The notes under the pieces are model-generated. The model ran no database searches. It was not told the origin of the DNA and saw only the letters and a program-made list of their open reading frames with translations. A DNA stretch of 40,402 bases from an uncultured Acetobacteraceae bacterium (GTDB lineage Bacteria; Pseudomonadota; Alphaproteobacteria; Acetobacterales; Acetobacteraceae). Shown piece after piece: positions 27,961-39,956 of the stretch. Location: NCBI GenBank assembly GCA_903877125.1, contig CAIRCM010000125.1:1-40402 (forward strand), written 5' to 3'. The stretch's first letter is position 1; each line of letters begins with the position of its first letter. The position numbers and the translations under genes were made by a program.

Positions 27961-28650
27961 ATGACCTTCGAAGCCATCGCAACCAGCCTGCGCGAAAAAT
28001 GTGTCGCCATGCCGGTCGATGCCCGGTCCTTCGCCCGTCCGCTCGCCCGCTGCTCCCTCGCTGACTGCCGCGGCATGTGCTGCTACGACGGTGTCTACCT
28101 TGACGCCCCGACCGAGGCCGCGATCGGCGTGATCGCCCAGGCACGTCGGCCGGCATTCCAGGACATGGGCCTCGACCTGCCCGCCACGGTCGTGGTCGAC
28201 GGGTATGTCGGCGGCGTGCTGTGCGGTCGCAAGACCGCGACAAGGCCCTGGACCCCCGACGTCGTGGACTTCCCGGCGCATTTCAACCGGACCTGCTGTG
28301 TGTTCCATCTGGACGACGGGCGATGCGGATTGCAGGTCCTGGCGGTGCGGGACGGACTGCATCCCTGGTACTACAAGCCGCCGTCCTGCTGGCTGTTCCC
28401 GATCACCATTCACAGCGGCACGATCCGGATATTCGACGAAACCAGCGATCCTTCCCGCTACGACGCCTATGCCGGCTTCGTGGCCTACACGCGCTGCGGC
28501 GCAACCTGCCCCACCGGGCAACCGGCCATCGAGGTATTGACCGACGAACTGCGGTATCTCGGGGACATCGTGGGACGGGACCTGGTCGCCGAGGTTGCGG
28601 AACACCCCGCCAACCGTAAAACCCGAGCCGCTTGCAGGAAGATCGGATGA
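27961..28650 (+). CDS. Cysteine-cluster protein (YkgJ-like, putative metal binding)
   Basis: A 229-residue soluble protein with many cysteines in clusters: Cys31, Cys36, Cys40 and Cys41 (CSLADCRGMCC), Cys112-Cys113, Cys122 (DDGRCGLQ), Cys143 (PPSCWLFPI) and Cys179/Cys183. The pattern of CC, then DGRCG, then KPxxCxLFP resembles YkgJ/DUF3109-type zinc- or iron-binding proteins, whose function is poorly known. ATG 27961 is set by the frame but touches the MITE element. ATG 28012 is an alternative just before the first cysteine cluster. The stop overlaps the WcbI-TPR start (ATGA). Confidence 0.75.
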   Translation: MTFEAIATSLREKCVAMPVDARSFARPLARCSLADCRGMCCYDGVYLDAPTEAAIGVIAQARRPAFQDMGLDLPATVVVDGYVGGVLCGRKTATRPWTPDVVDFPAHFNRTCCVFHLDDGRCGLQVLAVRDGLHPWYYKPPSCWLFPITIHSGTIRIFDETSDPSRYDAYAGFVAYTRCGATCPTGQPAIEVLTDELRYLGDIVGRDLVAEVAEHPANRKTRAACRKIG

Positions 28651-30680
28651 AAAGAATCGCCATGATCGGCAATTGCCAGATCGAGGCCATGGCAGGGCTG
28701 TACCAACGGTTCGTGTCGACCAAGACCGGTGATGTCGTTGACTACATTCGATCCTACGAGGATCTGTCCGACGATGATTGCACCGCCATTCAACAGGCGG
28801 ATGTCATTGTGGAGCAGTTGTTCGACCTGAAGCAGAAGGTCGATATCGCCAATATCGACGCAAGCGCGCCGCGGGTCTATGTGCCGTTTGTCACCGCCGG
28901 GTTTCTTTGGCCCTTCGCCGGCAGCCCCCACCCACGCAATCCGAGCCGCCCCGACCTTCTCGCCGGCCCCTATGGCGGCGAAGCATCCGACTCCTATTTG
29001 AACCGTCTTGTTCTGGCCGGTGTGGACCCCGATGAAGCCGTTGACCAGTACCTCCGGCTCGATGTCGCCAAGCATACGAATCTCGACCGCCTTTACGAGC
29101 TCGTCATCGATCGCCAGCGGTCGAGGGATTCAGCGTCCGAGTTCGATAATGTCACGGAAATCGAACGATATTTCCGTGTCGAACCAATTTTCCTCAGCCC
29201 ATATCACCCGAACGCGCGGATCGCTTGCCATCTGGCCGATCAGTTGTTTCAGCGGCTTGGCGTGGACAGGGCCGACATCGATCGCATGCGCCGGGGCACG
29301 ACAATCACCCCCTTTCCCAAGGGTGAACTGCCCATCCATCCAAGCGTTGCTCGGCATTTCGGTCTGGAGTTCGTAAGCCCCGACCGGCGGTATCGCTTCA
29401 TGAACGAAGGCAGCTTTACCTTCGAACAATTCGCACGCCGTTATATGAAGCTGGAGTGGAACGAGCCGCTGGAAGAAGGCCTCTCTCTCTCCCGGCGTGG
29501 AGAGCTTGATGCTGCGGCGGAAAGATTGACCGAAGCGCTCGCCATCGGTCCGAAATCGGCCGCCGCACACCACGGCCTTTGCCACGTTCTGATGCAGCAG
29601 GGGCAATTGGACCGGGCGATAAACGAGGCCCTGTCCGCCGTGCTGCTGGAACCCGACGATGTCGCATATCGTGTGTCCCTGGGGCATGTTTTGCAAAAGG
29701 CGAACGCGCTGGACGAGGCCGAGCACCAGCTGCGCGCCGCCGTCGCCTTGGCCCCGAACGAGCCGCATTATTACATGGTTCTGGCACATCATCTCAGGCA
29801 TTGCCAACGGACTGGCGAGGCGATCGCACTCCTGCGGCAAGCGCTGGAGATCGACCCCTACCTGCCAAACACCTATATCGAATTGGCACATTTTCTGGAG
29901 GCGAACGGCAACCCGTCCGAAGCCGAGGCAACCCTGCGACAGGGGCTCACCCAGGTCGCGAAAGGCCAGGATATTCGAGACTGCCTGGTACAGCTGCTGG
30001 CCCGGCAGAACCGCCAGGATGAGATTTTGCCGCCGGGACCGGTCGCCGTGGCGAAACCCGAAAATGTGGCCCAATCGAGGCCGGATGTCGCCTCTCCCCC
30101 CCGTCTGCCTACCCCGGACCTGCAACCGGCGCCGGCGGTCGAAGAAGCCAGTCCGCGAGGCGCCGACGGTTGGGCCCGGATCGGCCATCGCGCGCTGGAA
30201 CGCGGCGACCTGACCGCCGCGGAACATGCATTCCGACAATCGATCGAGCTCGATCCGATGTTCGTCCATTCCTACGGTCGCCTTGGATACATACTGACCG
30301 AGACCGGGCGTCACGTGGAAGCAATTGCCGCCAGGCAGAGAGCAATCGATATCGATCCCTCCAACCCCCACTGGCACATGCAGCTCGGTCATGGCCTGAT
30401 GTCGGCCGGCGAGTGGGTGGCGGCGGAAAAAGCGATGCGCACCGCGATCACCATGGCACCGCGTATTGCCTCGTTCCATATCGACCTGAGCCACGCGCTC
30501 AGCCGCGCTGGCCGTTTGGACGATGCCATCGCGGCGGCCCGCCAAGGCATCGCGATGGAACCGGCAAACCCGCATTTCAATGCACATTTCGACGATTTGC
30601 TGCGGCAGATGAATATGCTGGGCGTGAATGAAACAGCCTCTCAGGCCCAACGGGGCATATCGGATACCGCGGCGGAATAG
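28647..30680 (+). CDS. WcbI-like polysaccharide biosynthesis domain fused to TPR repeats
   Basis: A 677-residue protein. The first 260 residues fit the WcbI capsule-biosynthesis family: the start MKRIAMIGNCQ holds its hallmark GNCQ, and YVPFVTAGFLWPF with FLSPYHPNARI follow. WcbI of Burkholderia is thought to be a CoA-binding acyltransferase-like enzyme of capsule synthesis. Residues about 275-460 are TPR repeats with consensus DPxxPxxxxxLxxxL, then a Pro-rich linker near 470-520, then a second TPR set to about 665. ATG 28647 overlaps the upstream stop and has AGGAAG before it. The TPRs probably dock partner enzymes. Confidence 0.85.
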   Translation: MKRIAMIGNCQIEAMAGLYQRFVSTKTGDVVDYIRSYEDLSDDDCTAIQQADVIVEQLFDLKQKVDIANIDASAPRVYVPFVTAGFLWPFAGSPHPRNPSRPDLLAGPYGGEASDSYLNRLVLAGVDPDEAVDQYLRLDVAKHTNLDRLYELVIDRQRSRDSASEFDNVTEIERYFRVEPIFLSPYHPNARIACHLADQLFQRLGVDRADIDRMRRGTTITPFPKGELPIHPSVARHFGLEFVSPDRRYRFMNEGSFTFEQFARRYMKLEWNEPLEEGLSLSRRGELDAAAERLTEALAIGPKSAAAHHGLCHVLMQQGQLDRAINEALSAVLLEPDDVAYRVSLGHVLQKANALDEAEHQLRAAVALAPNEPHYYMVLAHHLRHCQRTGEAIALLRQALEIDPYLPNTYIELAHFLEANGNPSEAEATLRQGLTQVAKGQDIRDCLVQLLARQNRQDEILPPGPVAVAKPENVAQSRPDVASPPRLPTPDLQPAPAVEEASPRGADGWARIGHRALERGDLTAAEHAFRQSIELDPMFVHSYGRLGYILTETGRHVEAIAARQRAIDIDPSNPHWHMQLGHGLMSAGEWVAAEKAMRTAITMAPRIASFHIDLSHALSRAGRLDDAIAAARQGIAMEPANPHFNAHFDDLLRQMNMLGVNETASQAQRGISDTAAE

Positions 30681-30795: not shown

Positions 30796-33700
30796 TTGGA
30801 CATCCAAGCCGCAGATCAGAATGAGTTATTCGAGGCAGCCCGAAACGCCCATGACGCACGTGACTGGCCAAGGGCCGCGCAACTGTGGGAACAGGTGCGC
30901 CGCATCGCCCCCGATCACCCGTTGAGCTACAGCGACGGCGCCGTGGCCCTGCGTGAGACCGGCGATCTGGCGGCTGCGGAACTGGTGATCGGCACCGCCT
31001 TGACCCGGTTTCCGGACTTCCTTGGCGGTTTCATCGTTTGGGCCGATTTGGCGGTTCGACGGCAGGATTGGCCGGAAGCCAATGCCCGTTGGGCGGAATT
31101 GAGGCAGCGCTTCCCCAACGACGGCCATGGCTTTGTCAATGGTTCGTTCGCCCTGCTGCAACTCGGCCGGACCGACGATGCGGATCGGTTGCTGCATGAC
31201 GCGGTGGGCGCCCAACCCAACGCTATCTGGGTGGTGGCAGCCTGGGCCTATTTCGCCCAGCAGCATCTTGATGCCGAGGAAGCCTTGAGTCGTTTCGCCA
31301 CCGTCAGGCGGCTCGTGCCCAATCACCCCGAAGGGTACCTCGGTGCCGCGCGGAGCCTGCGAAACCAACAGCGCTTTCACGAAGCCGAGGCGATGCTGGC
31401 CGGCGCCCTTGCACGGTTCCCCAACGAACTGTCACCGGTCGTTGAATTCGCCGCGGTCGCAGACGCCCGCGGGGACCGGAACGAATCCATCGATCGCTGG
31501 GGGATCGTGCGGGAACGCTTCCCTGACCAGGAGATCGGGTACGTCCAGGCGGCGGAATTGCTGCGTGCGGCTGGCCGCCATGAGGAGACCGAGGCCCTGC
31601 TGGCCGCCGCGATCGAGCGCTTTCCCGGCAATGCCCATATCTGGTTCACCCGCGGCTGGATCGCGAGCGATAAGGGCGACTGGACCGAAGCCGAACGCCG
31701 CTGGGCGGAAGCGCGGGCGCGCTTCCCCGCGATTCAGGCCCCCTATGTGGAGGGTGCACGGGCACTTGAGGCCCTCGGACGGCCCCACGAAGCCGATGCG
31801 TTGATCGTCGATGCGATGGCGCGGTTTCCGGCCGATCGCGGTATTGCGAGCACTTGGGTGGATCTGGCGAGGCGTCGGCACGATTGGGGAGCCCTGGCCG
31901 AGCGTATGAAGGCGGTCCGGCAAAATTTCCCTGACGATCCCGCGATGGTGGTGGATGGCAGCCGTGCCTTGTCCGCCGCGGGGCGGTTCGATGAGGCTGA
32001 CGCCATGTTGGCGGAGGCGATGCAGCGCCACTTCCAGCATGAGGCGGTTATTCGCGCCTGGGCCGAAGTCGCGATGCACCGCCAGATATGGCCTGCCGCC
32101 GCACAGAGATGGGAGACTGCGCGCCAGCACTTCCCCGAGATGCTGGTCGCCTATGTGGAAGGCAGTCGCGCCTTGAATATGGCGGGACGGGTCGCCGAGG
32201 CTGAAGCCTTGATGGACGATGCGGTGACCCGGTTCCCTCACGATGCGTCTGTCCGAATCGCATGGGCAAGCCTAGCCAACGATCGTGCTGACGCCCATCG
32301 CCGTTGGGAAACGGCGCGAAGCCTGTTCCCCGCCGAAGCGACGACGTGGATCGGAAGCGCCAGCGCCCTGGCCGATGCCCATCGCTGGCCCGAGGCAGAT
32401 GCACTGTTCACTCAGGGCCTGGCCGAACTGCCGCATAGCCAGGAGTTGATGTTCCATTGGGCATTGCGCGCCAGACACTCCCCAACAGCGGGACTCGCAC
32501 TGGATCGCTGGCAGCAACTGCGGGACACCTTCCCCGAGTTTGTCCTGGGTTACACGTTCGGGGCCTCGGCCCTGCTGGATGCCGGCCGCGCCGAGGCAGC
32601 CGAAGTTTTGATCGCAGCGGCTTCCGGGCGGTTTCCGAACGACACCGAGGTGGTGCGCATGAGCGCGGAGATCGCGGTCAGGCGTGGGGACCTCGACAGC
32701 GCGGTAGATCGTTTCACCACCGCTGCGCGGCTCAATCCAGGCGATATCGGTGTGGCTCGGCGCTGGATCGATACATTGGACGCCTTGCAGAGACACGATG
32801 AAACCTTGGCCGCGTTGGATACGGTACGGCGGATATGGCCGAGGGACCGGGTGTTTCTGCGCCGCCGCGCTGCACTCGCCATCAAAACAGGTCGTTTCGA
32901 TCAGGTTCGCGAACTCTGGCACTCGATCGTTGCCGACGCGGGACTTGCCGAGGAAGTGGGGTGCGACATTGCCTGGGCTATCTACCAGGAGAGCCCACCC
33001 CCCGATATCGCCCGCGAGGTCGTACTGTTCCTGTTGCGTGAAAAGGATACGGGTGCCCGCGACTGGCTGCCGGTGCTGGCGGACATGATTCAAACCCGTG
33101 GATTGAAGCCGCACCTGGCACATCAGGCCGGTGAGATTATGAATGCGGCGGACGAGCCGGGGGAGGCCGCGACGGTCGACGTTCTCCGCTGCGCCCTGCT
33201 GTACGAATACACAGACGACGACATTCGCCGGTATCTCAGGGACTACGTCGCCCTTGGACGTGTGGCGCTGACCGCCCATCTGTTTTGTCAGAATTACTGG
33301 AAACCCAAGAACGGCATGTTCGAACGCTTCACAGCGGTCTTCGAGGAATATCTTGCCGAAAAACTGCGCGACCCCGAGTGGATCCGGGAAGATAAGGCCG
33401 AGGAATTGCTGGCCTATCTGAATTTTGCCGCGGTTCATTCTGACAAAGCCTATGCCGATCTGGTGCACGCGATGCGGGGCCGGCTGGACTTGGAATCCAT
33501 GCAAACCCATGGGCTGCACACCATCGCGGGTGCGGCGGCGAATATCGCGCGCATGACACGCGTCGACGTATCCACGTCGGTTACGCCAAAGCGCCGTCTA
33601 CGGGTCGCGATATGCGTATCCGGCCAACTCCGCGGGTTCCAGCAGGCTGCCACGACTTGGCGGCATTTGCGCCTGGAAGATCACGACGTGTCGGTGTTCG

Positions 33701-36552
33701 TGCATGTGTGGAAGGAGATCGGGCGCAACTGGCAGCGGATCTGGTCCTTCGCGGCGCCCAATCCCAAACTCTATGACACGTTGGTCGGGCCGTCCGGTTT
33801 GGCAATGCTGCGAGGTCGCTACCCGACCCTGCTGGACGCCGCCCTAGCAGTCGCCGCGGAAAACAACGAAGCCAATGAGGCGATGCTGCGCGATGTCTAC
33901 AATACGCCATTCGTGCGTATCGAGGATGATCGAGCGGAAATGTTCCGTAATAGGCACAATCTGTGGAAGATGCACTACAAGATCGAGCAGGCACACCGCC
34001 TGGCGCTGGAAGATGGGCGTACATTCGATCTGATGATCCGCCTCCGGCCGGACCGGGAATTTCTGCCGGGCGACCCGCCGGACTGGAACGCCATTCACGC
34101 CCACTCCCGAGATCGGAAGGTCGTGTTCACTGACTCACCCTATCTGTTCACAGAGCGGCAAACCTGGCTCGGAGACCAGTTTGCCGTCGGAACACAGGAG
34201 GTTATGGAGGTCTACAGCACGATCTCCTCGGATATGGAAAAATTCGCCATCGCAGGCGCCTTCCCGCCGGATGTGCCCGCTCAGATCAGACCGCATACGA
34301 ACCTGTTTTATCTGACATTCTATCGCGGATTGCTGGGGCGCATGATGCCGGATGTGGCGTTCGGGGCGTTGCTGGATCCGGCCATGTTGTCGGCGGCGAA
34401 CGTGCTGGCGTTGATTCAACGCGACATCGCCGGACGCACCCTGGACGATTTCGATCGGCAGATGATAGCGGCCTGCCAGGCTGCGTTGCCAGCCGCGTCG
34501 CCGCCTGTCGCACCGGTCACCGATCCTGGCGCCAATGCCGGCGCGCCGCACAACGGGATGGAAACGCAACAAGACATCCAAGATCGCGCGTTATACGCGG
34601 AGCAGGCCGGTGACTGGCCAGCGGCGGCTGAAGCCTGGGCTTTCCATCTGTTGAAATTCCCCCCCACATGGGGCGCGTTCGCTGGGCGTGCCAAGGCCCT
34701 CCGCCAAATGGGGCAGATTGAACAGGCTGAGGCAGTGCTTCGCGACGGGGTCGCGCGATTCGATGATGCGACCGGGCTTCTGATGCTCCTGACTGACCTC
34801 CTCGCGGCGTCCGGCCGGCTCTCCGAAGCCTATGATATCGTGACCGAGGCACTCGCCCGGCAACCCGACAAACCCGAGTTGCTGTTTATGGGCATCGAGC
34901 TGGCGGTCAAACTGGAACGTCCAAACGACGCCTTCGCGATCTGGCAACGCATGCCCCCGGATACCGAGGATATGCGGCGCAGAAAGATCGACACCGCCTG
35001 CGACATCCTGCGTTTGGAACCCGCGGATACCGTCATACCGGTCTTGCTGACCTGTTTGGCGACCGAAGCGGATAACGGGGAAGCCGGATGGTGCCCGCGT
35101 TCAGCGCTCTTTCTTCATTCCTTGGTGCTGAATCCGAATGCGCCGATTTCAAGGTATGCGCAATTCTACAATCAAAACCCTCACTTGTTTTCAGACAATC
35201 CGTACAGATTCGCATGGATCGCGGTATTGGGACTGCCTTGCGGCGAACGCGAACAGGACGCCCTGATCCGGGAGATCGTCGAACAGGGAAGATTCGGTCT
35301 GGCATCTTTTGTCAATTCGGTTTTTGTTCTGGAAACGCGCCCGGAATGGCGGGCCGCCGTGCTGACGCGGGTAAGCGCCCATATCCAGGGAATCGTGCAG
35401 GGCAATCAACCGATCGTATCCGACAAGGAAAGTTTGGGGGCGCTGCTTGGCCTCGCGATAACCTCGATGTACCTCCAAGATGTGTTTTGGATTTTCGTGG
35501 AGTGGCTGCGGCGTCGTGAACGAGACAATGTTCTAACGGAACATACGCCGACCTCCGCGAGAGCCATGCTCGGCCGTTATCTGACAGGGGTGTCGCGGGC
35601 CGAACGTCTCAATGGTGGACCGGTACCGATTTCCCGCCCAGGCAGACGTCTGCGGATCGCTCTTTGCATATCCGGCCAATTGCGGGGATTTCGCGCGGCC
35701 TTCCCGACTTGGCGGACCACCGGGATGTTCCAACATGAAACCAGTATCTTTGTGCATACTTGGCGAAGCGTCGGCCTCAACTGGATGCGGTTTTGGGACT
35801 TCCTGCGGTTCACCCACCCAAGTGCCCATGGCGTTCTCGCACGCCAGGGTGGCGCGCGTACCCTGGCGGAGCACTTCCCGACCTTGGCAGCCGCGACAGA
35901 GACCGAATTGGCTACCGGCTCCCATGTCGATGAGGAAACACTTCGGGCATTCTACGGGACAGAGTTTGTGACCCTTGAAGACGACGAGCAGCCGCCATTT
36001 ACCGGGCGCACCAACGACTGGAAGATGCTTTACAAAGTCCAACAGGCTCACGAGCTTGCTTTGTCGAGTGTTCAGGATTTCGACCTGTTCGTGCGTATCC
36101 GCCCCGACATCGGTTTGGATTTCTCACAGGAGATCGATTTCCACGCACTCGCGTTCGAATCGTCGCGCGATCATAAGCTGTTTCTCGACGCCCCGGTCCT
36201 GTTCACAGCCCCGAATGGCTACCTCCAATCAGGCGATCAAATCGCAATCGGAACCAAGGGGCCGATGACGGTCTATGCCAACACCATAGCCTTCGATTCC
36301 GCCGGCGCCTCGTTGCTGGGTGCCCCGCTAGACCCGAAGGCACATGTGACGCTCGGAACCGCGCTGTTCACCCAAGGCGTCATAACGACTGGTTTGGCCG
36401 GAATGAGGGGAAAGCAGTTGCTGAACCAAACGGTCCTGTCACCGCTCGAGATCGCGGCTTTGGCCGAACGGGACGCAGCGAACGCACCCGATACCGATTT
36501 CGCCCGGCAATTCCTTGATGCGTGCCGGCGGGTCGCGGCGCTGGCGCCATGA
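30796..36552 (+). CDS. Giant TPR protein with two glycosyltransferase-like modules
   Basis: A 1918-residue protein. Residues 1 to about 760 form some ten 68-residue supra-repeats, each with an xDWxxAxxRWxxxRxxFP helix pair and a GRxxEAEALLxxAxxRFP pair. A helical stretch follows. The first SGQLRGF module is at about 935-1240 and contains IRLRPD and GDQFAVGT. From Met1255 the layout restarts: TPR-like helices to about 1400, a helical region, and a second SGQLRGF module at about 1618-1918 with VRIRPD and GDQIAIGT. These modules resemble bacterial putative glycosyltransferases of unknown activity. The start is TTG 30796 with GGAAG before it; an in-frame stop at 30748 leaves no ATG or GTG. No signal peptide is seen, so it is probably cytoplasmic. 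Confidence 0.85.
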   Translation: MDIQAADQNELFEAARNAHDARDWPRAAQLWEQVRRIAPDHPLSYSDGAVALRETGDLAAAELVIGTALTRFPDFLGGFIVWADLAVRRQDWPEANARWAELRQRFPNDGHGFVNGSFALLQLGRTDDADRLLHDAVGAQPNAIWVVAAWAYFAQQHLDAEEALSRFATVRRLVPNHPEGYLGAARSLRNQQRFHEAEAMLAGALARFPNELSPVVEFAAVADARGDRNESIDRWGIVRERFPDQEIGYVQAAELLRAAGRHEETEALLAAAIERFPGNAHIWFTRGWIASDKGDWTEAERRWAEARARFPAIQAPYVEGARALEALGRPHEADALIVDAMARFPADRGIASTWVDLARRRHDWGALAERMKAVRQNFPDDPAMVVDGSRALSAAGRFDEADAMLAEAMQRHFQHEAVIRAWAEVAMHRQIWPAAAQRWETARQHFPEMLVAYVEGSRALNMAGRVAEAEALMDDAVTRFPHDASVRIAWASLANDRADAHRRWETARSLFPAEATTWIGSASALADAHRWPEADALFTQGLAELPHSQELMFHWALRARHSPTAGLALDRWQQLRDTFPEFVLGYTFGASALLDAGRAEAAEVLIAAASGRFPNDTEVVRMSAEIAVRRGDLDSAVDRFTTAARLNPGDIGVARRWIDTLDALQRHDETLAALDTVRRIWPRDRVFLRRRAALAIKTGRFDQVRELWHSIVADAGLAEEVGCDIAWAIYQESPPPDIAREVVLFLLREKDTGARDWLPVLADMIQTRGLKPHLAHQAGEIMNAADEPGEAATVDVLRCALLYEYTDDDIRRYLRDYVALGRVALTAHLFCQNYWKPKNGMFERFTAVFEEYLAEKLRDPEWIREDKAEELLAYLNFAAVHSDKAYADLVHAMRGRLDLESMQTHGLHTIAGAAANIARMTRVDVSTSVTPKRRLRVAICVSGQLRGFQQAATTWRHLRLEDHDVSVFVHVWKEIGRNWQRIWSFAAPNPKLYDTLVGPSGLAMLRGRYPTLLDAALAVAAENNEANEAMLRDVYNTPFVRIEDDRAEMFRNRHNLWKMHYKIEQAHRLALEDGRTFDLMIRLRPDREFLPGDPPDWNAIHAHSRDRKVVFTDSPYLFTERQTWLGDQFAVGTQEVMEVYSTISSDMEKFAIAGAFPPDVPAQIRPHTNLFYLTFYRGLLGRMMPDVAFGALLDPAMLSAANVLALIQRDIAGRTLDDFDRQMIAACQAALPAASPPVAPVTDPGANAGAPHNGMETQQDIQDRALYAEQAGDWPAAAEAWAFHLLKFPPTWGAFAGRAKALRQMGQIEQAEAVLRDGVARFDDATGLLMLLTDLLAASGRLSEAYDIVTEALARQPDKPELLFMGIELAVKLERPNDAFAIWQRMPPDTEDMRRRKIDTACDILRLEPADTVIPVLLTCLATEADNGEAGWCPRSALFLHSLVLNPNAPISRYAQFYNQNPHLFSDNPYRFAWIAVLGLPCGEREQDALIREIVEQGRFGLASFVNSVFVLETRPEWRAAVLTRVSAHIQGIVQGNQPIVSDKESLGALLGLAITSMYLQDVFWIFVEWLRRRERDNVLTEHTPTSARAMLGRYLTGVSRAERLNGGPVPISRPGRRLRIALCISGQLRGFRAAFPTWRTTGMFQHETSIFVHTWRSVGLNWMRFWDFLRFTHPSAHGVLARQGGARTLAEHFPTLAAATETELATGSHVDEETLRAFYGTEFVTLEDDEQPPFTGRTNDWKMLYKVQQAHELALSSVQDFDLFVRIRPDIGLDFSQEIDFHALAFESSRDHKLFLDAPVLFTAPNGYLQSGDQIAIGTKGPMTVYANTIAFDSAGASLLGAPLDPKAHVTLGTALFTQGVITTGLAGMRGKQLLNQTVLSPLEIAALAERDAANAPDTDFARQFLDACRRVAALAP

Positions 36553-37658
36553 TGTCGACCATCTTGGAACGGTTTCGGGAATGGCGCGATCGGCGCGCGG
36601 TCTTTCGCGATATGCGACGTGAGAAGCGGAGGGCGGCGCCGTATGAAAGCCAGGAGCAGGCGCGCCTGATCAGTCAAATCCAAAATGCGGCTTTCCGCGA
36701 GGATCGTGACGCCGCGCTCGTTGCCTGGAATGCGCTCTATGCCCTCGCGCCAGACATCGCCATCACGTCGACAGAGGCCATCCGGGCGATGATGTGGCTC
36801 AAGCATTTCCAACAGGTTGACGCGGCTTTGATCGAAGCGCAGGAGCGGTTTCCCAGGCAGGCCGAACTTGCCCGGCTCTATGCGGAATCGGCGCAGCATC
36901 AAGGCCAATGGGAAGTCGCATGTGAACGATGGGCCGAAGTCCGCCGCCTGTATCCAGCGGTCGGTGGCGGATACACCTTTGGTGCTGGCGCGTTGTGCGT
37001 GCTGGGGCATTTCGAGGAAGCCGAAAAGCTTTTGGAATATTGGACGAAAATCGATCCAACGGACATCGTTGGCGCATCTGAATACGCGAAGGTCGCTGAG
37101 CAGCTTGGCAAGCTACCGGCCGCGCTGGACCGGTGGCGGCGGATGCAGGAACTCATTCACGACGTCACCGCCTGGGTCGGGGAGGCAAAAATTCTGCTCA
37201 AATTGGATCGGAGGGAGGAAGCGGTCGCGGTTCTTGAACGTGCTCGGTGGAAATTCGAGGCTAGCCCACTGCCATCCATGGAATTGTGCCTGATCGTCCA
37301 AGCCGAAGGAAATCACGAGGAGACGCTCCGGCAATGGCATAAATTTCGCGACCATTTTCCGGCTTCTCCCGCTGGTTATATCTTTGCTGCCTGGATTTTG
37401 CGCGATCTACAGCGACACGATGAGGCAGAAGCAATCCTTCGATTGTACATCGACCGGGATCTGTCGGAGCCGGAACCCGCGATCGAATACGCGCTACTGG
37501 CACATGGACGAAAGGAATGGGAGGAAGCGGCGCGGCGATGGAAAAACGTGCGTGAGAAGTTCCCCGAACGCCGTGAAGCGTATCAGTGGGGAGCGGACGC
37601 GTTGGATAAGTTGGGGGAACCTGACAAAGCCTCGGAACTGCGTACCTTGGCGCCATGA
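36549..37658 (+). CDS. TPR-repeat protein
   Basis: A 369-residue protein made almost wholly of TPR-like helical pairs after a basic N-terminal segment (EWRDRRAVFRDMRREKRR). Repeats such as QWEVACERWAEVRRLYP and HFEEAEKLLEYWTKIDP follow the same alternating 68-residue plan as the giant protein upstream, so it is a paralogue lacking a catalytic module. ATG 36549 overlaps the upstream TGA (ATGA); ATG 36552 is next. No enzyme domain or membrane segment is seen. It is likely a scaffold or an adaptor for the neighbouring enzymes. Confidence 0.82.
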   Translation: MMSTILERFREWRDRRAVFRDMRREKRRAAPYESQEQARLISQIQNAAFREDRDAALVAWNALYALAPDIAITSTEAIRAMMWLKHFQQVDAALIEAQERFPRQAELARLYAESAQHQGQWEVACERWAEVRRLYPAVGGGYTFGAGALCVLGHFEEAEKLLEYWTKIDPTDIVGASEYAKVAEQLGKLPAALDRWRRMQELIHDVTAWVGEAKILLKLDRREEAVAVLERARWKFEASPLPSMELCLIVQAEGNHEETLRQWHKFRDHFPASPAGYIFAAWILRDLQRHDEAEAILRLYIDRDLSEPEPAIEYALLAHGRKEWEEAARRWKNVREKFPERREAYQWGADALDKLGEPDKASELRTLAP

Positions 37659-37676
37659 TGCAGAGACCTGTAGTTG

Positions 37677-38996
37677 ATGACGACAGCCGATAAGACCGAC
37701 GCGGAAATTGTGTGCGACGCACAAGCCGCACTTGAGCAGGGCGATCTGGATGGGTTGCTCACCAAGTGCGCGATCTTGCGCGAGCGCAACCCCAATAACC
37801 CCATGGCATATACTCTCGCGATCCATGGACTTTTGGGACAAGGCAGGGTCGATGAAGCCGATGCGCTTTTGGCGACTGCCGCGGAACTTTTCCCGCAGGA
37901 TATGAATATCGCGATCCAATATGCACAGAATGCCCACCGGCGGGAGGACTGGGACGTTGCGGAATATCGATGGATGCTGGCGGCCTTGCGCTTTCCGGAC
38001 CAACCCGAAGTACTGATTGGCTTCGCCGATATGCTGACCGGGCAACAGCAATGGACCAAAGCTATCGATTTATGGCGCATTGTTTGTGAACGGGTGACCG
38101 AATTCCCGCCAGCGTTCATCCACCTCAGTGAATGCTTTCGCCATGCCGGGCGTCTATCTGAAGCCGACGCGGCCTTGGCCCGGGGATTGGCCGCATTCCC
38201 CGACGACGCTGCCATCCATACCCGATATGCCGGGTTGGCCGATATCATGCGGGACTGGAATGAATCGGCCAGGCGTTGGAACGCTGTTAAAACCCGGTTT
38301 CCGGAAGTGCCCGAAGCGCCGGTGTGCGAGGCGCTGGCGTTCACCCACCTTTGGCGCTTCGATGACGCCGAGAAGGTTTTGTCCGATGCCATAGCGATCG
38401 CTCCATCGGATCGTATTTTCGAACTGCGTCGCGAACAGGCTTGGCTTGGGTTTCGGAAAAGAGACCCTGATTACGCAAAATCCCGATTTGACGCCATGAT
38501 AAGGGATTATCCAGACCAGGCCGCCGGATATGCGGGCTCCGCCTTGGCGCTGGGTGGTTTTGGCCGGGAGGCAGAAGCCGAAGCGCTGCTGAATCTGGCA
38601 ACGGAACGGCTCCCATACGACCGAGGTTTGGCTTTTCAGCGCATAGAACTTACCATTGCCCTGGCTCGCACGGATATTGCCGCAGCCAAAAGGGCAATGG
38701 GATACCTGGAGGAATTCCGGGTTCGCTTCCCAGACGACCCGGTGGGGTTCGTGCTCGGTGTCCAGTTGCATATGCAGGACAACCAATATGACCCGGCGGT
38801 GGAGCTGTTGACTGCCGCTCTGGAGAAATGGCCGGACAACCCCGAGCTGATGCTTCAATATGCTCGATGCGCGGAATTGCAAGGTCAGGCCGACGCGGCC
38901 GAACAGCGCTATCGCAGGATGACGCTTGCGCTGCCTTTGCATCCGGACGGCTATCTTGGACAAGCCAGGTTACTTGACCAGCTGGGCTCGCGATAG
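37677..38996 (+). CDS. TPR-repeat protein, 5' part of an amber-interrupted gene
   Basis: 439 codons from ATG 37677 to an in-frame TAG at 38994. The product is TPR repeats of the same alternating type (DWDVAEYRWMLAALRFP, DWNESARRWNAVKTRFP, GRLSEADAALARGLAAFP). The final repeat breaks at LLDQLGSR, in mid-helix, and continues in the same frame after the stop as AAEAVLRAAI. Other repeats at this place read GRxxEAEAxL, so the stop replaces a normal sense codon. Thus the gene was probably one 759-codon reading frame. If translated as is, it gives a TPR-only fragment. The ribosome site is weak. Confidence 0.8.
   Translation: MTTADKTDAEIVCDAQAALEQGDLDGLLTKCAILRERNPNNPMAYTLAIHGLLGQGRVDEADALLATAAELFPQDMNIAIQYAQNAHRREDWDVAEYRWMLAALRFPDQPEVLIGFADMLTGQQQWTKAIDLWRIVCERVTEFPPAFIHLSECFRHAGRLSEADAALARGLAAFPDDAAIHTRYAGLADIMRDWNESARRWNAVKTRFPEVPEAPVCEALAFTHLWRFDDAEKVLSDAIAIAPSDRIFELRREQAWLGFRKRDPDYAKSRFDAMIRDYPDQAAGYAGSALALGGFGREAEAEALLNLATERLPYDRGLAFQRIELTIALARTDIAAAKRAMGYLEEFRVRFPDDPVGFVLGVQLHMQDNQYDPAVELLTAALEKWPDNPELMLQYARCAELQGQADAAEQRYRRMTLALPLHPDGYLGQARLLDQLGSR
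38994..38996 (+). other. In-frame TAG (amber) codon interrupting a TPR helix
   Basis: Codons read GGC TCG CGA TAG GCG GCG GAA GCG with no frame change on either side. It could be a real nonsense mutation, a suppressed codon or a sequencing error; CAG, GAG, AAG and TGG are one base away. Confidence 0.85.
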
Positions 38997-39956
38997 GCGG
39001 CGGAAGCGGTATTGCGAGCGGCGATCAGTAAGCTCACTGGTATCAAACCATTGGCTGTTGCATATGCGACAATCGCCGGGAAATACAATGATTGGCCGGC
39101 GGCGGTGCAACGCTGGGCGGATGTTGTCCACCAGTTTCCGAACGATGAAGCGATCGCCCGTGGCCTGTTCGAAGCCCGCCTGGCTTTGATCGGTAGTGAA
39201 ACACCGAGCGAACCCATCGCCCACGCGGCATCGGACCTGCCTCACCAAGCCGAGGCGGGCGAGCAGCCGAGTGTCGTCGAATTGGCCATGCGGTTTGAAA
39301 GCATGGGCGGTGGTGACGGACAAGGGTGTGAATTCGGCATGTTTCAGCGGACGCTCGGTGCCGAGCCGCTGGGATTGTTACGTTGGGCCAGTTTGGAACC
39401 GGCAGATGTCGTGGCGGCCCTGCGTGCACGTTTCGAAGGGGTTGGTGATCCCGAGCAGACGGTGATAGGAAAATTGACGTGGCCCGATCACGAAGAATAT
39501 ACCACAAGTGATGTTAAGTACGGCATGCACATGCATTCGTTTATTAATACGTCCACCATGACAGAACAACAGGCAGTCCAGATGCTGGGTCGAAGATTGA
39601 AATTTCTGACACGGAAATTTATCGAAGATCTTATCTCTGGTGAAAAAATATTTGTGTATCGAAAGATAACGCGTGATTTGGAAGACAGTGAGATCGACGA
39701 GATGCATGCGGCGATGCGATCATACGGGGATAATACCATGCTATACGTTCGCTATGAAGACGGCGATCACCCCAATGGGACCGTCTCGTTCGTCCGGCCC
39801 GGGCTGATGATCGGCTATATAGACCGCTTTGCCTTCTCGCGAGATATGCAACGAACGAGCGCGGCGAATGAATCCTGGTTGAGGATTTGTCAAAATGCAT
39901 ATCGTCTTTGGATGGACCGGGGCGCCGCGGACGCCGGTTTGAAGGCTGTACGATGA
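38997..39956 (+). pseudogene. 3' part of the amber-interrupted gene: last TPRs plus 'CEFG' domain
   Basis: The frame continues from the TAG for about 319 codons; independent initiation would need TTG 39012, which has no good ribosome site. TPR helices (NDWPAAVQRWADVVHQFP) end near codon 80. A distinct domain follows: FESMGGGDGQGCEFGMFQR, then GAEPLGLLRWAS, FIEDLISGEKIFVYRK, and a late LMIGYIDRFAFSRD. I recognise this pattern from DUF1796-like or CEFG-type proteins linked to TPR and glycan genes, some of which are annotated as papain-like peptidases; the activity is unproven. The DNA is much more AT-rich than the upstream genes. It is probably a decayed or read-through module. Confidence 0.7.

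Follow-up and report, generated by a model that had tools for sequence, protein, structure and literature searches.

A fused gene from an uncultured Acetobacteraceae bacterium joins two paralogous modules with a predicted GT-A glycosyltransferase fold to tetratricopeptide repeats

The window analysed here is a 40,402-nucleotide stretch of DNA (contig CAIRCM010000125.1 of assembly GCA_903877125.1) from an uncultured Acetobacteraceae bacterium, and the gene under study is a long open reading frame (ORF) on its forward strand. The codon-position G+C values of 30796-36552 were 0.68, 0.47 and 0.71, an order as in coding DNA. A Pfam scan of the whole product listed 19 families to E 1, among which tetratricopeptide repeat (TPR) families matched the N-terminal part and about residues 1294-1392. 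The gene is laid out as follows (aa, amino acids).

30796..36552, forward strand: the fused gene of 1918 aa, reading TPR, helical region, module A, linker, TPR, pre-module region and module B, with a TTG start and no internal stop
30796..32895, forward strand: N-terminal TPR array, about residues 1-700, matched by Pfam TPR families and 54% identical to gene 1 of the related locus L042
32896..33570, forward strand: all-helical region ahead of module A, about residues 701-925, modelled jointly with module A
33571..34491, forward strand: module A, residues 926-1232, with a predicted GT-A fold (predicted structure and fold search)
34039..34053, forward strand: RLRPD of module A, residues 1082-1086, which by strand order falls where DxD would be
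34480..34557, forward strand: Ala/Pro-rich linker, residues 1229-1254; at this place the relatives' genes stop and restart
34558..35052, forward strand: second, shorter TPR array, residues 1255-1419, matching the middle part of the TPR array in the relatives' gene 2
35053..35622, forward strand: region ahead of module B, residues 1420-1609, related to the relatives' gene 2
35623..36549, forward strand: module B, residues 1610-1918, a paralogue of module A by sequence comparison and tree
36094..36108, forward strand: RIRPD of module B, residues 1767-1771, recognised by its motif

A preliminary description of this DNA, made from the letters alone, had noticed two related modules of about 300 residues in the 1918-residue product, and sequence comparison confirmed them with 39% identity between modules A and B, far beyond chance. 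The shared motifs were located in A and B, respectively, at residues 942 and 1626 (SGQLRGF), 968 and 1652 (FVHxW), 978 and 1662 (NWxRxW), 1039 and 1724 (FVxxEDD), 1057 and 1742 (WKMxYK), 1082 and 1767 (R[LI]RPD), 1126 and 1813 (GDQ[FI]A), and 1218 and 1901 (DFxRQ). A blastp alignment of one half against the other (E=1e-56, 30% identity over 561 columns) paired residues 694-1228 with 1369-1911, so the repeated unit spans about 535-543 residues and includes the pre-module helical region; the paralogy of the modules thus stands, while the repeat is longer than had been described.

Genomes of the same genus carry the corresponding genes separately. In G265 (locus L043), three genes stand side by side (1244, 1001 and 1081 aa), every one ending in a single module. 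In G309, which shares sequence with L042 and L044, gene 1 has its own stop; gene 2 could start at codons that overlap this stop or sit two bases past it, and it runs off the contig. In a maximum-likelihood tree, module A joined gene 1 of both relatives (100/99) and module B joined gene 2 (100/100), indicating that the duplication predates these genomes and that the fusion came later. The third gene formed a pair of its own (L043 and L044, 99/96), and no counterpart of it turned up in the genome of the window, whose completeness is 97.9%. The earlier suggestion that two tandem paralogous genes had fused was therefore borne out by the adjacent genes of two same-genus genomes and by the tree pairing, and the two halves did not turn out to be unrelated genes, as the relatives' separate genes are related to each other. 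Within the limits of one draft assembly, it is well supported that two neighbouring paralogues, long diverged, truly fused.

At the junction, where the relatives stop and restart, the fused gene stays open through an Ala/Pro-rich stretch, AALPAASPPVAPVTDPGANAGAPHNG. The preliminary description had read Met1255 as an old protein start resembling the N-terminus, which did not hold: the residues after Met1255 aligned to residues 320-482 of the L042 gene-2 ORF (46% identity) and, from residue 33 of this stretch onward, to residues 385-516 of the L043 (G265) gene-2 ORF (42%), that is, to the middle of gene 2. This placement inside the gene-2 ORFs identifies the AxxAxDWPxAA motif at Met1255 as a TPR-type repeat signature. 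The fused protein has nothing that corresponds to the initial 310-350 or so residues of gene 2, and no clear Shine-Dalgarno sequence was seen by eye ahead of Met1255. The simplest history is that the gene-1 stop and some 310-350 codons from the start of gene 2 disappeared together; we infer this direction of change from a long state known from two relatives only.

Two full modules in one ORF were found in none of the 52 other module-bearing ORFs of loci L042-L088, four of which run off an end and one of which (L076) has a weak extra fragment, nor did two module matches share one frame in the other genomes of a 299-genome family sample or a 33-genome genus sample. Among the genomes examined, the doubled form was seen only in the window's genome. 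The ratio of nonsynonymous to synonymous substitution rates (dN/dS) was 0.12-0.14 for module A and 0.18-0.27 for module B, at a dS of 1.5-1.8 that is near saturation, and these low values point to purifying selection on both modules. Identity to the orthologues was 74-75% for module A and 56-60% for module B, and both modules seem to be intact and under selection.

The module is strongly predicted to adopt a GT-A glycosyltransferase fold with a single Rossmann-like domain, on the evidence of an AlphaFold2 model (pLDDT 96) whose fold search led to GT-A. The earlier label of glycosyltransferase-like is therefore upheld at the level of the fold, and the search did not place the modules in a non-glycosyltransferase fold. 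The helical region and module A were modelled jointly with a pLDDT of 94.3 and a pTM of 0.91; the fold of the helical region was not identified, since searches with region and module together matched mainly the glycosyltransferase part. No Pfam or NCBIfam family matched either module, and PDB sequence searches were likewise negative. A weak match came from phrog_13607, of unknown function (E 6.4e-6 for module A and 5.2e-4 for module B), and tblastn of annotated phages returned nothing for module A or for a viral ORF of L089. TPR-scaffolded glycosyltransferases are known; what appears to be new here, from sequence and predicted structure, is a GT-A family outside Pfam and NCBIfam that occurs in a doubled form.

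The top Foldseek match of the module was to the GT25-type proteins COLGALT1 and LH3, of GT-A fold; GT25 (PF01755) homology was rejected, the hhalign probability against GT25 of the same bacterial family being 0.3% in a comparison of 12 rows, one of them mis-extracted. Foldseek also matched phage and giant-virus proteins, the six best at E 1e-10 to 3e-10 with TMq 0.48-0.55, and one of these viral matches, from Sylvanvirus, is named DUF7796 domain-containing. The DUF7796 profile (PF25072, cut-off 27 bits) matched neither window module when scanned to E 10 and gave weak matches in 2/52 module relatives (best 2.6e-4); its search of the 33 genus genomes gave no match and shows nothing, as its 14 controls were silent too. 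SGQLR and R-x-D recur in the short viral ORFs of L089-L094 (hhalign 98.5% and 96.4%), which, unlike the fused protein, lack the TPR part. With GT6, which includes the blood-group transferases and the metal-independent BoGT6a, the tie is one of fold only, at 8-14% identity in the rows listed; the module differs in having RxD rather than NxN, in its TPR fusion and in the lack of a profile match to PDB sequences. No paper with DUF7796 and none with SGQLRG was found in the literature searched.

According to excerpts of two sources, GT-A enzymes mostly carry a DxD motif after strand 4, and GT14 and bacterial GT6 lost it and are metal-independent (PMC3961637, PMC7185993). In module A, R-P-D instead of DxD occupies positions 159-161 of the module numbering, after the strand at 154-158, a placement made by strand order only. 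In alignment A5, built from the 52 module ORFs of L042-L088 once L085, L086 and the weak additional fragment of L076 had been removed, R157, R159 and D161 were invariant in 52/52 rows. Because an SGQLRG or KMxYK seed pattern was required of the relatives, part of the conservation of these two motifs stems from how the rows were chosen; the RPD letters were in no seed pattern, and R-x-R-x-D was kept in 14/16 rows of the less selected set A3. By eye, the helix-strand-LRPD of the module parallels the helix-strand-LEDD of the GT25 rows. The position of RxRPD, as judged by strand order, and its invariance are in keeping with the earlier proposal that it may replace the DxD motif, and the metal role remains putative. 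An invariant Arg-x-Asp at this position suggests weakened or absent metal dependence, in which an Arg might neutralise the diphosphate in place of a metal. The strand before that at 154-158 is followed by another acidic motif, EDD at 118-120, with E118 in 44/52, D119 in 38/52 and D120 in 36/52 rows. The two A3 rows without R-x-R-x-D are degenerate modules, L038:6609-7562 and L039:8507-9448, which lack both SGQLRG and RPD and are possibly non-catalytic.

The module family is widely but thinly spread. The window's two modules were the only ones found in their own genome, and a module match occurred in 17/299 genomes of the family sample and 5/33 of the genus, the window's own included in both, which makes it a patchy trait. 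Scanning one genome per species turned up 84 pattern matches; 47 of them, at 45 loci, encode a relative. These lie in Acetobacteraceae and other Alphaproteobacteria (including Roseovarius, Aminobacter, Neorhizobium, Sphingobium and Methylobacterium), in Variovorax, Vibrio, Shewanella, Pseudomonas, Methylovulum and Paenibacillus, and in metagenome-assembled genomes of Verrucomicrobiales, Riflebacteria and one placed in Myxococcota. A viral collection contributed eight loci out of 144 pattern matches. Tandem module genes recur in L042, L043, L062, L068 and the viral L089-L094, the last being tandem pairs of module-related ORFs of about 240 aa without TPR, an echo of the bacterial tandem genes. 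Methylovulum miyakonense holds at least four module genes (L074, L075, L076 and L078) at separate places on one scaffold; L074, the one gene of these that was scanned for TPRs, carries them. A TPR match was absent in 7/10 relatives scanned (L055, L060, L063, L065, L066, L083 and L087), and the 333-aa ORF of L060 comprises little besides the module.

Close neighbours of the fused gene in the window are the following.

28632..30680, forward strand: just upstream, an ORF of 682 aa with a WcbI domain at residues 9-212 (PF18588; E 3.5e-13, 50.1 bits, cut-off 29.2) and TPRs after it
36522..37658, forward strand: downstream, a TPR-only ORF of 378 aa that overlaps the end of the fused gene (Pfam scan)
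37674..38996, forward strand: a TPR-only ORF of 440 aa (Pfam scan)
39012..39956, forward strand: an ORF of 314 aa from an uncharacterised family (GCEFGxFQRxxGAEPLxLLRW), with no convincing Pfam or PDB match

WcbI is a separate domain outside the fused gene, and elsewhere it is joined to the module, in one 1813-aa protein with TPRs in L054 (Rhodopila, G318, the window's genus) and in L083 (Shewanella). Excerpts of a report on it describe WcbI as a CoA-binding capsule protein that alone showed no acetyltransferase activity and was proposed to need an acceptor-presenting partner (PMC4104973). By association, the module proteins are candidates for that partner; no paper joining WcbI, glycosyltransferase and tetratricopeptide was found in the literature searched. 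Three plasmid records hold a module relative, and two of the three lie in polysaccharide-type loci. The relative on Phaeobacter plasmid pP78_d is surrounded by genes for a capsular biosynthesis protein, a sugar transporter, an ABC transporter ATPase and permease, UDP-galactopyranose mutase, sulfotransferase, CDP-glycerol glycerophosphotransferase and UDP-glucose/GDP-mannose dehydrogenase, and the Tropicibacter relative adjoins GT2, sulfotransferase, a large glycosyltransferase and UDP-galactopyranose mutase. Among 18 neighbours of relatives scanned, 11 had a Pfam match, including two methyltransferases (L048), an ABC exporter (L063), a nucleotidyltransferase and an epimerase (L066), GT2 (L047), a sulfotransferase (L065) and HAD hydrolases (L065, L071).

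Taken together, the gene is probably a true fusion of paralogous genes for TPRs, a helical region and a GT-A module that encodes a two-site glycosyltransferase for surface polysaccharide. We infer glycosyl transfer, a polysaccharide acceptor, partner binding and metal independence. Each module would bind a nucleotide-sugar in its Rossmann half, through the SGQLRG loop after strand 1, and move the sugar onto a growing cell-surface glycan; the TPR arrays would keep both active sites on one scaffold, allowing two successive transfers by one chain, and would probably also hold partners such as the WcbI-TPR protein encoded upstream. Excerpted accounts of capsule polymerases assign their TPRs to oligomerisation in Cps1B (PMC5974469) and describe them as needed for elongation in Cps3D and Cps7D (PMC11666461). 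Several points weigh against a two-site polysaccharide enzyme. The fused ORF is read from one draft assembly of 231 contigs, degenerate modules such as L038 and L039 exist, and the conserved EDD could bind a metal. Among the ten window ORFs scanned, the more distant upstream ones encode PPK2, Ppx/GppA, FtsJ, radical SAM and DUF3109-like proteins, which do not make a capsule locus; the third plasmid relative (Variovorax) lies where its record is unannotated; citrate transporter (L074) and succinyl-CoA-ligase-like (L071) genes are non-glycan neighbours; and 9/20 ORFs scanned (seven of the 18 neighbours and two phage module relatives) had no Pfam match. WcbI is present in 24/33 genus genomes against 5/33 for the module, so the pairing is not obligatory and the partner argument is weaker. 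To our knowledge, no activity, donor or acceptor has been reported for any family member.

The catalytic domain of OGT is GT-B. OGT and FlmG resemble the window protein in an N-terminal TPR array followed by a glycosyltransferase domain, and a protein O-glycosyltransferase of this kind, whose TPRs bind the protein that the modules glycosylate, would also fit the report, as excerpted, that FlmG binds flagellin through its N-terminal part and requires both of its parts (PMC7591256). The same excerpt describes the FlmG catalytic domain as resembling the GT-B superfamily, whereas the window modules are predicted GT-A; moreover, most relatives scanned have no TPR match, two of the three plasmid relatives lie in polysaccharide-type loci, and no flagellin was recognised among the ten window ORFs scanned. 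The hint of OGT/FlmG-type protein glycosylation in the preliminary description was consequently not sustained, the fold and the locus context favouring a polysaccharide role, and we regard protein glycosylation as quite unlikely. A narrower form of the polysaccharide reading, a processive polymerase in which A and B would take turns adding the sugars of a repeat, is a tentative possibility. Two diverged modules under purifying selection share one chain, tandem module genes recur, and Cps1B, Cps3D and Cps7D likewise combine TPR with two transferase domains per polypeptide in polysaccharide synthesis (excerpts of PMC5974469 and PMC11666461), a likeness that here comes from sequence and predicted fold. 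Those polymerases, however, pair a TagF-like domain with GT-A or GT-B, whereas the window protein has two copies of one GT-A module and no TagF-like domain among its 19 listed Pfam families; no sugar specificity is known, and the separate-gene relatives show the fusion to be dispensable.

That the faster-evolving module B is a non-catalytic accessory domain is unlikely: its lower orthologue identity and the degenerate L038 and L039 speak for it, while B keeps the S-G-Q-R, W, M, R-x-R-x-D and D of GDQ that are invariant in A5, and its dN/dS stays low. An assembly or base-calling artefact that merged two true genes, as the draft state of the genome and the unfused relatives might suggest, is very improbable, because the junction is not a simple lost stop: a 26-residue Ala/Pro-rich linker replaces stop and restart, Met1255 has no clear Shine-Dalgarno sequence, and the beginning of gene 2 is missing. 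The boldest version of the two-site polysaccharide reading has the module found a metal-free GT-A family with DxD traded for Arg-x-Asp, supply the missing WcbI partner for joint surface-glycan building and acylation, and yield by deletion between tandem genes a one-chain, two-site polymerase; as a whole it is decidedly doubtful.

The module defines a GT-A-like domain family outside Pfam and NCBIfam, present in several phyla and in viral contigs, with a changed putative metal site. The proteins in which it is joined to WcbI make it a concrete candidate for the partner that the excerpted report proposed as necessary for a putative acetyltransferase function of WcbI (PMC4104973), and the fused gene beside unfused relatives of the same genus is a clean natural case of the making of a possibly bifunctional glycan enzyme.

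Downstream, 37674-38996 and 39012-39956 share a reading frame that is interrupted by a single TAG, and the matching regions of L032 (G018) form one 780-aa ORF, making gene splitting or decay possible at 37674-39956. The GCEFGxFQRxxGAEPLxLLRW family occurs in 31/33 genus genomes, with up to 12 matches in one, and shares an open frame with a WcbI match in G311:C632 and G265:C6.
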